Source: a virus
IMG/VR virus record: IMGVR_UViG_3300047557_002951
Location: 95,557-159,556 of that record
Direction: 5' to 3' (one strand)
DNA: 64,000 bases
Within the stretch, counting starts at the first letter, position 1, and each line of letters starts with the position of its first letter. This document shows positions 7,632-35,461 of this stretch, one piece after another. The notes beneath the pieces were generated by a model, which did not search any database, was not told where the DNA came from, and saw nothing but the letters and a program-made list of their open reading frames with translations. The position numbers were made by a program, and so were the translations under genes.

Positions 7632-8153
7632 TTATTGGTGCTTTTGTAGGTATTTAACGGCATTGCTTAATGTGCTGATATTATCACCGACCAATCCTAA
7701 CATTCTATTACAATTGCTACAAAGTAATCCACGCACCTTTCCAGTATTATGGTCGTGGTCCACATAAAGATTTTTACTATCTTTTCTACCATTAGTATTT
7801 GGATTTAGACAAATAGCGCATACTTCATTCTGCTCTTGTAATACACTTTTATACTGCTCTAAACCAAAGTCTTCTCCATAAGTATATTTTAACATATAGT
7901 CTTTCTTATCATCATAAGAAGGTCTCTTATCTTTATAGTCTTTACTATAACAATCTTTACACCTTTTATGACCTTTATAATACTCATCAATAAGTTTTTC
8001 TACACCACATTTATTGCAGACAATATGAGTTTTACTTGCCCAGTTTTCAGCATAAGTTTTCTCTTCACACCTCATACACCTTCTACGACCTTCTCTAAAA
8101 TCAGAGGAGGGAAGTTCTTGTGTGCAGGTTCTACAAATCTTCGTGGTTCTCAT
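7632..8153 (-). CDS. EndoVII-type HNH endonuclease (probable homing enzyme)
   Basis: 173 residues. Two zinc ribbons at the N-terminus (CRTC...CMRC about 7-28; CNKC...CKDC about 47-70) precede a recombination endonuclease VII domain: CAICLNPN, then the core LYVDHDHNTGKVRGLLCSNC and NRMLGLVGDN. T4 gp49 (EndoVII) resolves branched DNA, but copies with extra zinc ribbons next to photosynthesis genes are usually freestanding homing endonucleases; the psbA-linked enzyme of phage S-PM2 is the known precedent. It lies directly downstream of psbA, which carries two introns, and has its own TATAAATA late box. Confidence 0.88.
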   Translation of the reverse strand: MRTTKICRTCTQELPSSDFREGRRRCMRCEEKTYAENWASKTHIVCNKCGVEKLIDEYYKGHKRCKDCYSKDYKDKRPSYDDKKDYMLKYTYGEDFGLEQYKSVLQEQNEVCAICLNPNTNGRKDSKNLYVDHDHNTGKVRGLLCSNCNRMLGLVGDNISTLSNAVKYLQKHQ

Positions 8154-8240: not shown

Positions 8241-10272
8241 TTAACCGATGGTTGGAGCAGTAAGAGCAACAGGAGTTGTTTCTGCTGATGCCAAATCCAG
8301 AGGGAAGTTATGTGCGTTCCTCTCATGGAGCACTTCGAAACCAAGATTTGCTCGGTTAAGAATGTCTGCCCAAGTGTTAATCACATGACCTTGACTATCA
8401 AGAAGTGACTGATTAAAGTTAAAACCGTTACTCTGTTTCCTTAAATTTACCATCTTTAAGGAGAGGACTATATCTTCATCCCAGTAGGATGTTGGGCGCT
8501 AGTGTCGTATTACATTCCACGCTTGGAAAACCGACTAGTCTCTGAACCTTTCCAAGAAGCGTCTTGGACTTGGCTGCTGATTACCCATTTATGGAGGGCT
8601 TCCAGCAATTCACCCAAAGTTTACCGTCAAATTGCTAGGACGGGACCCCGACGATTGAGGTTAAATGCCATCGTAGAAACACCAAGAGCAGCGAACCAGA
8701 TTCCAACTACAGGCCATGCAGCAAGGAAGAAGTGTAGACTGCGTGAGTTATTAAAGGAAGCATATTGGAAAATAAGGCGTCCGAAATAACCATGAGCAGC
8801 AACGATGTTATAAGTCTCTTCTTCTTGGCCGAACTTGTAACCATAATTCTGTGACTCTTGCTCAGTTGTTTCACGAACCAAAGAAGAAGTCACGAGCGAT
8901 CCATGCATTGCTGATGCGAGAGAACCACCGAAGACACCAGCCACACCAAGCATGTGGAACGGATGCATAAGAATGTTGTGCTCTGCTTGGAATACAAGCA
9001 TGTAGTTGAAAGTACCAGAGATACCCAGAGGCATCGCATCAGAGAAAGAACCTTGACCGAAAGGATAGACCAGGAATACAGCAGAAGCAGCAGCAACAGG
9101 AGCACTGTAAGCAACGCAGATCCAAGGACGCATACCTAGACGGTATGAAAGTTCCCATTCACGACCCATATAAGCATAAATGCCGATAAGGAAGTGGAAC
9201 ACTACAAGTTGGAAAGGACCACCATTATAGAGCCACTCATCTAGAGAAGCAGCTTCCCAGATGGGGTAAAAGTGCAGTCCAATAGCATTGGACGAAGGAA
9301 CAACAGCACCAGAGATGATGTTGTTTCCGTACATTAAAGAACCAGCAACTGGTTCACGAATCCCGTCTCTTATCCCAATAAAACAGTCATATCTTGCGAC
9401 TTAGACCGTTTCAGTTGACCTATTTGATTTGCTCGTTTTGCGTTTTCTACTCTTCCACCATTTTCTACCCACTCTTTCCACTCATTAATATAAGAAATAC
9501 ATTCTTTAATTCTTTCACTTCTTCTATTTCCCATATGGGGAAGTATTTTTTCCAAAATGAAAAGAACTTTTTCTCTATTTCCTATATGAAGGACATAAAC
9601 TGGTTTTCCTTTGAGTGTTTTTCTATTAGGTACAAAATAGGGTTTATCTACAAAATTACTTAGTTTAGCAACCACATCTTCATCAGTCATAACAAGACGA
9701 ATGTATGGTGCTGGCGGTGCTTTAGAAAAGTCATAACGGTCTTTAGAACGATTATCTATTCCAAAGTATCCTTCACCTTCTAAAATTCCTGCAATCCAAG
9801 TAATTTGTGATTCTGTTAAATCAAGCATTTTGACTTCGCATCTACTGTTATATTTATACAGCAAGTGCGAATAAAAGTCAACTGTGAGATTTGGACTATA
9901 TCTTCACCCTTTAAATTTTTTAAAGGTGCTGGGCACTCTAGCCTGTTATTAAGGGGACTAAACCCCTCAGGTAGTCTCTGAACCTTCCTCAAGTGTACTT
10001 GAGGCTTGGCTGCTGATTGCCTTTCGGTTTCCAGCAATTCACCCAGTTTTAACATCATCCTTACGGATGAAGGACACAGATTAAAGCAGTATGTCTACGG
10101 GAGGTGCTGCAATAAATGCAACAATAAAACAGATAGTTGCCGCAAGAAGGCAAGGAATCATAAGAACTCCGAACCAACCAACATACAACCTATTATCGGT
10201 TGAAGTTACCCAGGAACAGAATTGTTCCCAGAGGTTTTCGCCAGAACGGCGTGAAGCAATTGAAGCAGTCAT
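8241..10272 (-). CDS. psbA: psbA, photosystem II D1 protein, split by two introns
   Basis: Three exons join to 1083 bases, encoding a 360-residue D1: exon 1 is 10091-10272, exon 2 is 8658-9368 and exon 3 is 8241-8430. Junction 1 restores V-D-I-D-G-I-R and junction 2 restores F-N-L-N-G-F-N, both exactly as in cyanobacterial D1, and no residue is lost. Both junctions obey group I rules (5' exon ends in T, intron ends in G). The GREWEL segment has Glu at the position that distinguishes high-light D1:2 (Glu) from D1:1 (Gln). The protein replaces photodamaged host D1 during infection. It ends ALTAPTIG, with the usual processed tail. It is driven by a near-consensus promoter and a late box. Confidence 0.95.
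8431..8657 (-). other. Group I intron 2 of psbA (no ORF)
   Basis: 227 bases. The 5' exon end ACCT pairs with intron GGGT nearby, giving P1 with the U-G wobble at the splice site. Core elements are visible in order: TGAATTGCTGGAA (P side), AATCAGCAGCCAAG (Q/R side), GGTTCAGAGACTA (P7 5') and GAAGATATAGTCC (P7 3'). The last base is G. It contains no reading frame for a homing enzyme. Its core is nearly identical to that of intron 1. Confidence 0.85.
9370..9828 (-). CDS. Intron-encoded LAGLIDADG homing endonuclease
   Basis: 152 residues from the MLDLTESQ start (a 12-residue longer version reads [12 protein letters not shown]). A single LAGLIDADG motif is seen as [14 protein letters not shown] near residue 11, with the acidic residue in place, so it probably acts as a homodimer. 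A basic C-terminal region follows ([16 protein letters not shown]). Such enzymes cut intronless psbA copies to spread the intron. It has its own late box TATAAATA about 25 bases upstream, as known for intron enzymes of T4. Its stop lies flush against the 3' splice site. Confidence 0.88.
9853..9860 (-). promoter_or_regulatory. Late promoter box inside psbA intron 1
   Basis: Minus-strand TATAAATA about 25 bases upstream of the LAGLIDADG start. T4 intron endonucleases are likewise expressed from late promoters within the intron, which keeps translation from interfering with splicing of early transcripts. Confidence 0.6.
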
Positions 10273-10425
10273 TTTTCGTTAAAGGGTAAGTAAAAAGTCC
10301 AGGGGGAACTGGATGGTTACAGTATATCCCACACCACCCTCCAGTGTGGGTATGAGAGACGGATTTTACTTGCCCATTAGTCTCGGTAGGGCAAGATAAA
10401 AAGAAAAGTATTGTATTTTCAATGT

Positions 10426-31356: not shown

Positions 31357-31440
31357 GATCAGGTCTGCCATGCACGCCACCAATTCTTTAACTGGAAATT
31401 GGAAACCAGGCGGAGAATTAATTCCCCATCCGCACCAGGG
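31357..31440. other. Structured non-coding stretch
   Basis: Two hairpins are visible: CCAATT/AATTGG and a larger GCGGA/TCCGC stem holding GAATT/AATTC. No reading frame of useful length. It could be a leftover tRNA-like or 3' UTR structure; identity unknown. Confidence 0.35.
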
Positions 31441-31445
31441 CAAGA

Positions 31446-31643
31446 TTATTGTCGTTCCGAGACAAAATTATTGATAATTTCCGATTGCTTAAGAACTTGA
31501 TCTAGAGTTGGAAACTCTGGAAATTCTGATTTACCAGAATTTTGATGTTCCAAATTAGAAATCTCATATTTCATACAGTATTCATCATGTAACATATTAT
31601 ATGCTTGCTTGAAAATTTCAAATCGTAATTCATAAGGTGTCAT
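31446..31643 (-). CDS. Small unknown protein
   Basis: 65 residues starting MTPYELRFEIFKQAYNMLHD, a helix pattern found in many T4-like cyanophage small proteins. It ends in INNFVSERQ. Function unknown. Confidence 0.65.
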   Translation of the reverse strand: MTPYELRFEIFKQAYNMLHDEYCMKYEISNLEHQNSGKSEFPEFPTLDQVLKQSEIINNFVSERQ

Positions 31644-32269: not shown

Positions 32270-32286
32270 AAATTAGAGTTTTATGA

Positions 32287-32362
32287 TCCGGATATTCAGA
32301 TTTGAACTGAAATTATTCCTGCTCCCAAAGCAGGTGCCATGACCAAGTTAGGCGATATCCGG
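32287..32362 (-). tRNA. tRNA-Pro(UGG)
   Basis: Acceptor CCGGATA/TATCCGG, D-arm GCC...GGC, anticodon stem CCTGC/GCAGG with loop TTTGGGA (anticodon TGG), T-arm TTCAG-TTCAAAT-CTGAA, A73. No encoded CCA. Confidence 0.9.
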
Positions 32363-32374
32363 ATGTTAATGTAT

Positions 32375-33440: not shown

Positions 33441-33441
33441 A

Positions 33442-33511
33442 GCGGATGATCGGTTCTGCCCCGACGACCTCTGGGTGGAAACCAGAAATTATACTATTTA
33501 ACTACATCCGC
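33442..33511 (-). tRNA. tRNA-Gly(UCC), atypical loops
   Basis: Acceptor GCGGATG/CATCCGC is perfect, anticodon stem TCTGG/CCAGA with loop TTTCCAC (anticodon TCC). The T-stem pairs GTCGG/CCGAT, but the loop is GGCAGAA instead of TTCRANY, and the D-loop lacks the GG pair. A strong promoter precedes it. It may be a degenerate or unusual tRNA. Confidence 0.65.
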
Positions 33512-33744: not shown

Positions 33745-33774
33745 ATTATAGCATGTTTGTTGGGGGTTTGTCAA
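33745..33774 (-). promoter_or_regulatory. Sigma70-type promoter
   Basis: TTGACA (33769-33774), 18-base spacer, TATAAT (33745-33750). The TGA of the double-HNH gene is inside the -35. Confidence 0.8.
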
Positions 33775-34730
33775 GTACTCCACAAATCTTTGGCGTGAAT
33801 TTCGCGGTGACAATTACTACAAACTATTATGCAGTTTTCCAGTTCTTTCTTTTGGCGTTCAAATCCCCAATAACAAAATCGTCTAGAATATGTTGGAGAT
33901 TTTTTACTTGGATCTACATGATGAAACTCTAATGAATTGATGCATTGATCATATCCACACACAGAACAACAACCACCCATATATTCAACTGATTTTTCTT
34001 TTCCCTTTATTCCCCTCTCAACAAAATTTTTACTATCACAAGATTTGCATGTTTTACTATGAGTCCCAGATCCGGTATTTTCTTCTGTGAGAACTATATC
34101 ACATTGTTTACAAGAATTTTTTCCAGTATTTCTACCAGTAAAGATAACATCCGAAAGATTATTCACTAGATTAGCCGAAAATTCTTTTTCTAGTTTCTTC
34201 CTTTTGTTAATTATATTATGTTCTTCTCGGTGGCAATTAGAACAAAGTAAAACACATTTATTCAGTTCATTTCTAATCGTATCCCAAGTCTTATTCATCA
34301 TTTTTGATGGATTAAATTCTTTTTCTTTCGGGTTCAAATGATGAAAATCTAGGGCAGTTAAATTTTTGTCATATCCACATTTTTGACATTGATTTCCTTT
34401 ATACTCTACGCACTTTTGCTTAAAAAACAATCTTTTGTTTAGAGTATTATTGCAATAGCAAGATTTACAGTACGAAGAATAAGTATTTTTATTTTTTCTA
34501 TCATATGCATTTTCTGGAGTTAACTTTGCATTACAAGAACAACAGTATTGATTATTTTTATCTACTCTTTTTGGATAATTATAACCCTGCGTAAAAGATT
34601 TATTTTTAGTTTTTAGATTAAATTTCTTTAACCAGTATCTTATAGTCGTTTGTCCCTTATTAAAATAAAGAGCTAATTCTCTCATGGACATACCTTGTTC
34701 CACAAGAGACGCTAGTAGGTCTCTATTCAA
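33771..34730 (-). CDS. Endonuclease with two HNH domains and N-terminal HTH
   Basis: 319 residues. Residues 1-45 form a homeodomain-like HTH (MSMRELALYFNKGQTTIRYW). A zinc ribbon with Cys pairs leads to HNH 1: CQKCGYDKNLTALDFHHLNP to LLCSNCHREEH (about 115-170). A second ribbon and HNH 2 follow: CSVCGYDQCINSLEFHHVDP to IVCSNCHREIH (about 255-315). Both HNH sets keep the HH and NCHRE residues. The tandem arrangement in one chain resembles an internal duplication. A freestanding homing endonuclease is the most likely role. Confidence 0.85.
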   Translation of the reverse strand: MNRDLLASLVEQGMSMRELALYFNKGQTTIRYWLKKFNLKTKNKSFTQGYNYPKRVDKNNQYCCSCNAKLTPENAYDRKNKNTYSSYCKSCYCNNTLNKRLFFKQKCVEYKGNQCQKCGYDKNLTALDFHHLNPKEKEFNPSKMMNKTWDTIRNELNKCVLLCSNCHREEHNIINKRKKLEKEFSANLVNNLSDVIFTGRNTGKNSCKQCDIVLTEENTGSGTHSKTCKSCDSKNFVERGIKGKEKSVEYMGGCCSVCGYDQCINSLEFHHVDPSKKSPTYSRRFCYWGFERQKKELENCIIVCSNCHREIHAKDLWST

Positions 34731-34820: not shown

Positions 34821-34848
34821 AAGGCATTTTTATTTAGTTGTTTTCAAC

Positions 34849-34920
34849 AGGCGCATCTGGATTCGAACCAGAGATGAGGAGGTAGAAGCTCCTAGTGATA
34901 ATCCACTTCACCATGCGCCC
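34849..34920 (-). tRNA. tRNA-Arg(UCU)
   Basis: Acceptor GGGCGCA/TGCGCCT (one G-U), anticodon stem AGGAG/CTCCT with loop CTTCTAC (anticodon TCT), T-arm TCTGG-TTCGAAT-CCAGA. UCU decodes AGA, common in AT-rich phage genes and rarer in hosts. Confidence 0.9.
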
Positions 34921-34931
34921 ATAACAAGACA

Positions 34932-34960: not shown

Positions 34961-34961
34961 G

Positions 34962-35241
34962 TCCGGAATGACAGATTCGAACTGTCCCTTGAGCGATTTT
35001 CTTACCACTATAGTTTTCACTACCAATCATAAGATCGTTTGTGGTCTGGACTTTCTCTTTTCCATATCCATAAGGACTTAGGAACCACCTTTTAAGTCTC
35101 TACACCTTCATCTTACGATGCTTGGCTCGGGATTGCCATTTTAAAGGTTTCCCCGAATTTAAGTGGATTCACACACAGAGTTTCCAACTGTGGTGCTCAA
35201 ATTATTTAAGTCGCTTGCCTCTTCCGCTGGGCTAATTCCGG
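34962..35241 (-). tRNA. tRNA-Leu(UAA)-type gene with group I intron
   Basis: Exon 1 is 35208-35241 and exon 2 is 34962-35000. Spliced: acceptor CCGGAAT/ATTCCGG with A73, D-arm GCC...GGC, anticodon stem AGCGA/TCGCT, loop CTTAAAA (anticodon TAA), T-arm GACAG-TTCGAAT-CTGTC. The intron sits between U34 and A35, the site used by cyanobacterial tRNA-Leu(UAA) introns. The body has only a 5-base variable loop, so it is not the usual class II Leu tRN form; identity by aminoacylation is therefore not certain. Confidence 0.85.
35001..35207 (-). other. Group IC3-like intron in the tRNA anticodon loop
   Basis: 207 bases, starting AAATAATTTGAGC after CTT and ending GGTAAG before AAAATCGC. The 5' exon CTT pairs with GAG in the intron start with a U-G at the splice site. 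Core blocks: GGAAACTCTGTG, GGGGAAACC, GGCAATCCCGAGCCAAG (R), TAGAGACTT (P7) and GAGAAAGTCC (S). These match the cyanobacterial tRNA-Leu intron. No ORF inside. Confidence 0.87.
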
Positions 35242-35268
35242 AAGTATAAGACTCATAAAAGAGTCTAG

Positions 35269-35340
35269 TGGTTCTGCAGAGAATTGAACTCTGTTCACAG
35301 CTTTATAAGAACTGGGCCTTAACCAATAGGCGACAGAACC
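35269..35340 (-). tRNA. tRNA-Ile(UAU)
   Basis: Acceptor GGTTCTG/CAGAACC, D-arm GCC...GGC, anticodon stem CAGTT/AGCTG with loop CTTATAA (anticodon TAT), T-arm CAGAG-TTCAATT-CTCTG, A73. UAU reads AUA, a codon common in AT-rich phage genes. Transcribed with the intron tRNA from one promoter. Confidence 0.82.
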
Positions 35341-35349
35341 AATAAGACA

Positions 35350-35378
35350 ATCGTACCACATAAGAAGTAGATTGTCAA
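35350..35378 (-). promoter_or_regulatory. Promoter of tRNA-Ile and intron tRNA
   Basis: TTGACA (35373-35378), 17-base spacer ending CTTATGTGG, TACGAT (35350-35355). A 7-base inverted repeat GACAATC/GATTGTC spans the promoter. Confidence 0.75.
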
Positions 35379-35379
35379 G

Positions 35380-35461
35380 TCCTCGTTTTCAGATTTGAAC
35401 TGAAACTCCGTTAGGAAACGGTTTTTGAGACCGTCGCGGCTACCGATTACGCCAAACGAGG
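35380..35461 (-). tRNA. tRNA-Leu(CAA)
   Basis: Acceptor CCTCGTT/AACGAGG, anticodon stem ACGGT/ACCGT with loop CTCAAAA (anticodon CAA), a long variable arm of class II type (about 13 bases), T-arm TTCAG-TTCAAAT-CTGAA, A73. Confidence 0.88.

Follow-up and report, generated by a model that had tools for sequence, protein, structure and literature searches.

The window analysed here, a 64,000-nucleotide stretch of the IMG/VR virus record IMGVR_UViG_3300047557_002951 (positions 95,557 to 159,556), holds on its minus strand what reads as a tRNA-Leu(UAA) gene split in the anticodon loop by a group I intron, which confirms the central observation of a first-pass annotation. With its intron option on, ARAGORN called tRNA-Leu(taa) at c[34961,35241] and put a 207-nt intron between positions 34 and 35; run without that option, it did not report the split gene. 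The 5' exon (35208..35241, 34 nt, CCGGAATTAGCCCAGCGGAAGAGGCAAGCGACTT) ends in GCGACUU, its U34 lying at the splice site, the intron (35001..35207) has no ORF and a final G, and the 3' exon (34961..35000, 40 nt, AAAATCGCTCAAGGGACAGTTCGAATCTGTCATTCCGGAC) begins with AAAAUCGC and supplies A73, CCA not being encoded. The first-pass annotation had described a perfect acceptor and T-arm broken by 207 bases between bases 34 and 35, and both points agree with the exons, in which the acceptor stem (7/7), anticodon stem (5/5) and T stem (5/5) are fully paired and the D stem has three pairs and a C.A mismatch; its coordinates were nearly right in extent, but the gene is encoded on the minus strand, its end being at 34961, not 34962. 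The repeated A's at the junction would let the splice point slide by up to 3 bases if only the sequence were considered, and the terminal-G and U.G rules set it at 34/35. A second contig (L009) has an identical copy extending over 9,928 bp and probably belongs to the same phage population, so the copy does not count as independent support. Viral-contig matches to a pattern of the intron's first bases were set aside as mostly chance sites, L009 alone being real.

The group I core for which a covariance-model check had been proposed was found by Rfam Intron_gpI (RF00028), which matched 35217-35026 (minus strand) end to end (model positions 1-253) with 54.8 bits and an E value of 2.3e-13, the curated cut-off being 50 bits. 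This was the third-best RF00028 match in the 159.6-kb phage record, behind two introns near psbA; a gathering scan of the whole window lost the intron in the filters, and it was found once a short stretch was searched. The R (AGAGACU), P7 (GACU/AGUC) and S blocks named in the first-pass annotation are all present, and in P1 the exon CUU pairs with GAG, leaving a U34.G pair at the 5' splice site. For covariation we aligned 18 tRNA-Leu(UAA) introns (that of the window, 12 from viral contigs, those of LR756501 and Agrobacterium phage Atu_ph07, and three from alphaproteobacteria) and counted the structure with P3 as a pseudoknot against P7. Across P1-P9 of these introns 97% of cells were paired and both sides had changed in 26/46 pairs, with a covariation score of 0.508 compared to 0.157 in shuffles and 0.04-0.10 in slid controls. 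P3, P7 and P8 were fully paired in all 18, with compensatory changes in P3 and P8 and an invariant P7. A pairing of the 5' exon GACU with the 3' strand of P7 proposed by RNAalifold was rejected as an artefact, because the method allows nested pairs only, and the pseudoknotted structure was counted instead. The terminal G occurs in the window intron and in 59/59 distinct relatives among the matches listed.

GAAA loops cap P2 and P9 of the window intron, and its P8 contains CCUAAG...UAUGG, which fits the form of the 11-nt tetraloop receptor and arose in 0.3% of shuffles; CCUAAR together with UAUGG was present in 30 of the 59 distinct relatives (among the matches listed). The Azoarcus intron is among the tRNA introns known to have the 11-nt GAAA receptor, and we take GAAA loops in P2 and P9 combined with a P8 receptor to be features of the Azoarcus intron and used them as criteria for subgroup IC3. 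Both the anticodon-loop site and the GAAA/receptor motifs were found, and judged by these features the window intron appears to be of the tRNA (IC3-like) kind of group I.

The source record can be assigned by its genes to a T4-like cyanophage, which bears out the earlier call of a phage genome: its DNA polymerase shares 57% identity with the Synechococcus phage B23 enzyme, its ribonucleotide-reductase matches Synechococcus and Prochlorococcus phages, and the window also holds a Photo_RC (psbA) gene, a PhotoRC-II RNA (10314-10407) and two psbA-adjacent group I introns (8439-8667 and 9871-10100, minus strand), and an endonuclease VII-like ORF occupies 7632-8153. The split gene belongs to a minus-strand tRNA cluster. 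Upstream of it, and probably on the same transcript, is a tRNA-Ile(UAU) (35268..35340; ARAGORN and Rfam), preceded by a sigma-70-type promoter-like site (35350..35378, TTGACA-17-TACGAT, a consensus match only) and an intronless 83-nt tRNA-Leu(CAA) (35379..35461; ARAGORN); downstream is a tRNA-Arg(UCU) (34847..34921; ARAGORN) with its own promoter-like repeat. The site at 35350..35378 is one of four related repeats in the cluster, each with a TTGACA-17-TATGAT-like predicted promoter. Adjoining the cluster is a free-standing HNH endonuclease gene (33771..34730, minus strand, 319 aa; Pfam PF01844, PHROG 2255, E 2e-49), for which no viral relatives were found outside the same phage population and which may possibly act as a helper of intron mobility. 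The window has 35% G+C, and UUA accounts for 20% of leucine codons in 23 of its long ORFs. Elsewhere in the window, we noted a wcaG RNA motif (31366-31467, minus strand, 72.7 bits), a tRNA at 33441-33511 (minus strand) that Rfam scored at 47.2 bits and ARAGORN did not call, and an ARAGORN tRNA-Pro (32285-32363) that Rfam did not find.

The variable loop of the split tRNA-Leu is 5 nt long and the tRNA body is therefore of class I, unlike bacterial tRNA-Leu; as to identity features, the spliced tRNA would carry the UAA anticodon and A73 and lack the long class II variable arm. In viral contigs, at least 120 stretches fitted a pattern of the spliced gene, and 120 of 121 pattern matches (among those listed) fold as an intronless tRNA-Leu(UAA) of 73-76 nt, so that class I tRNA-Leu(UAA) can be regarded as a common phage type. 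Such tRNAs without a long variable arm were very common in viral contigs (L352-L471). The nearest intronless gene among the matches listed (L470) has 57/58 bases identical from the D arm to the T arm, and its two halves fall on the two window exons by blastn, which marks the insertion point; a MAFFT placement of its 5' exon was misaligned and the blastn placement was used. The L470 contig also encodes a DnaB-like helicase gene with a 68% match to that of the window phage, and this locus is an empty site, an intronless allele on another phage contig. In related phages found through a neighbouring gene, no such tRNA lay near that gene.

Introns of the same type were found by blastn in tRNA-Leu(UAA) genes of the annotated phages LR756501 (735 kb), LR756511 (595 kb) and the cultured Atu_ph07, whose intron scored 48.9 bits with RF00028, just under the cut-off. 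We then counted relatives gathered by a P9-motif scan of viral contigs together with the loci already found, the window gene being counted once; many of them come from metagenomic contigs whose viral classification was made by others, with phage proteins confirmed on only some. The intron type occurred at a minimum of 124 distinct places, 109 of them inside tRNA genes (among the matches listed) called as Leu, Arg, Asn, Met and others, while at most of the 15 places outside called tRNAs a tRNA-like 3' half came next, in many cases at the end of a contig. Among the matches listed, all 77 Leu(UAA)-type distinct places had the site ACTT/AAAAT (the slash marking the insertion), with class I bodies in 16 and class II in 61, and 16 of the 77 had introns longer than 500 nt. 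ARAGORN calls of tRNA-Tyr(ata) with exons ACTT/AAAAT were rejected as Leu(UAA) genes with shifted boundaries. An HNH-like ORF was present in 11/12 distinct introns longer than 500 nt (among the matches listed), and likewise in the 700-nt tRNA-Leu(UAA) intron of LR756511 (L019, 2977-3690), whose HNH endonuclease is about 154 aa long; when five HNH-like ORFs, one from LR756511, were tested in Pfam, four scored above the curated HNH-family score and the fifth matched weakly. No endonuclease is encoded within the 207 nt of the window intron.

Several other phages gave observations in their own right. The 286-nt 'tRNA-Arg' annotated in GenBank for the cyanophage Microcoleus phage My-WqHQDG (L338, 2813-3098) can be read as a tRNA-Arg(CCU) interrupted by a 213-nt intron, which scored 37 bits with RF00028, below the cut-off (E 4e-8). 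In Gordonia phage Daredevil (L339, 1840-2151), a tyrosine integrase and an HNH gene lie close to an unannotated split tRNA, whose 238-nt intron is of this kind judging by its motifs and has a weak Rfam score. A segment between two capsid ORFs of Pelagibacter phage HTVC120P (L023, 1501-1665) has 72-78% identity to phage tRNA-Leu introns, and the intron family may therefore also occupy protein genes.

The first-pass annotation had noted that the intron shares its position and first bases with the cyanobacterial tRNA-Leu(UAA) intron and had proposed a transfer from the host line to the phage, or the reverse. The likeness itself holds (position 34/35, ACTT/AAAAT, similar first bases), but the CUU/AAAA site is occupied in many alphaproteobacterial and other bacterial tRNA-Leu genes too, so position is not evidence of a cyanobacterial source. 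Group I introns in tRNA-Leu(UAA) were frequent in alphaproteobacteria and were also seen in acidobacteria and Bacteroidota genomes (L145-L262). The nearest relatives of the window intron are phage Leu introns (mean identity 71%, best 77%), followed by a rarer Leu type from cyanobacteria (two introns, 67%), Leu introns of other bacteria (mean 64%) and 19 canonical cyanobacterial Leu introns (mean 57%, best 61%). The rarer type represents a second, divergent tRNA-Leu(UAA) intron in two cyanobacterial genomes (L311, L316). The window gene as query matched 20/386 cyanobacterial genomes, mostly at tRNA-fMet introns (best 2 candidates per genome). In the tree with cyanobacterial tRNA-Leu introns that had been called for, phage, bacterial and cyanobacterial Leu introns clustered by group (6 label changes compared to 65.6 in shuffles) and the canonical cyanobacterial introns formed their own 100/100 clade with the window intron outside, but the deep branches were weak and a sister placement of the window intron to that clade was not rejected by the AU test (p = 0.60 and 0.41 in two sets). 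Constraining the phage Leu introns to a single clade gave p = 0.44 in one set, which is no rejection, and p = 0.03 in another, a marginal one. The exons belong to a class I tRNA of the phage type. The gene therefore does not derive from the class II tRNA-Leu of the host, and the class of the tRNA body rules out whole-gene transfer from the host. An exchange of the intron with the cyanobacterial host's own tRNA-Leu(UAA) gene, to which the shared site, the unrejected sister placement and the 67% identity of the second type lend something, is accordingly improbable on identity, clade and exons. A phage pool appears to be the best supported source; because the deep branches are weak and the sister placement is not rejected, we name no specific donor.

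Two further readings concern what the intron does. An adaptive intron, whose split loop would shield the tRNA gene or precursor from host anticodon nucleases or from elements aimed at intact tRNA genes and whose splicing would time tRNA supply, might be read from the strong preference for the Leu(UAA) anticodon loop and from recurrence in different phages and in both tRNA classes, but phages commonly carry this tRNA in intronless form, the HNH-bearing copies point to a selfish element and the mature tRNA would be unprotected once spliced, which makes this reading no less improbable than host origin. Less credible still is a decaying, non-splicing insertion in a tRNA pseudogene: the RF00028 score lies barely above the cut-off and the D stem has its mismatch, but every core helix is intact, as are the terminal G, the two GAAA loops and the remaining exon stems, and intronless phage tRNAs share the D arm.

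We favour, with a probability of about 0.86, a phage-type class I tRNA-Leu(UAA) carrying an ORF-less, probably self-splicing intron drawn from a pool that circulates among phages. The split tRNA-Leu would be co-transcribed with tRNA-Ile from the upstream promoter, and in the pre-tRNA the exon CUU would pair with the intron guide UUUGAG (P1, with the U.G at the cut). A guanosine bound in P7 would attack after U34, the freed U34 would attack after the last intron G, and the joined exons would give the junction GACUUAAAAUCGC; after end trimming and CCA addition, the tRNA, presumably charged with leucine, would read UUA codons. The pool would sit in the loop CUU/AAAA of tRNA-Leu of either class, and some members would move by their HNH-type homing endonucleases, the window intron having lost one or relying on one elsewhere. 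A more far-reaching version, which we consider unlikely at present, is that phages own a large, mobile anticodon-loop intron family that moves between tRNA classes and isotypes in phages unrelated to one another, has served as a reservoir seeding cellular tRNA-Leu introns and is partly kept by hiding tRNA genes from tRNA-targeting defences.

Collectively, the window intron is, as far as sequence comparison goes, a single example from a set of phage tRNA introns that is widespread and little described, and about a hundred of these were found. Phage introns have been said to be confined to protein genes, every phage intron known by 2014 lying in a protein-coding gene according to a review of that year (PMC3984707), whereas the phage tRNA genes described here carry relatives of ancient tRNA-Leu introns. 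Since there are related phage introns, some with homing endonucleases, as well as intronless alleles, the spread of tRNA introns between lineages becomes testable. Genes of this kind can escape tRNA and Rfam scans run at default settings, and phage tRNA sets, including that of the cultured jumbo phage, are therefore probably undercounted.

Group I introns in tRNA-Leu(UAA) are the textbook case of ancient introns. The cyanobacterial form resembles the window intron in anticodon, U34/A35 site, P1 U.G pair, group I core and lack of an ORF, and differs in its sequence (57% mean identity), its separate clade, its class II tRNA body and its 3' end (GTGGTAAG, compared to GAGAATG in the window). Proteobacterial and other bacterial tRNA introns (Arg(CCU), Ile(CAU), Leu(UAA)) have the same core and lie in the anticodon loop, many of the Leu(UAA) introns sharing both site and 3' end with the window intron, but they reside in cellular genes and, for Leu, average 64% identity. 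Among phages, tRNAs with 'enigmatic introns' were described in Lak megaphages in 2019, in what was said to be the first such report (Devoto 2019, PMC6784885), and the available text of that paper does not name them group I. The tRNA-Leu(UAA) of Prevotella phage Lak-B1 has an intron at the same ACTT/AAAAT site as the window gene. Two group I introns seem to be present in this Lak-B1 gene (L336, 1663-2406), the first close to the D loop and the second in the anticodon loop; the upstream core scored 40.5 bits with RF00028 (1809-1983), below the cut-off. The word 'intron' is absent from the main text of the Atu_ph07 paper and of the huge-phage paper, and in the open literature, subscription papers lying outside the search, we found no paper that treats the group I introns of phage tRNA genes as one family. 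The introns of T4-type phages (td, nrdB, nrdD; cyanophage psbA) are likewise phage-borne and group I, often with homing endonucleases, but they sit in protein genes, whereas the window intron sits in a tRNA gene.
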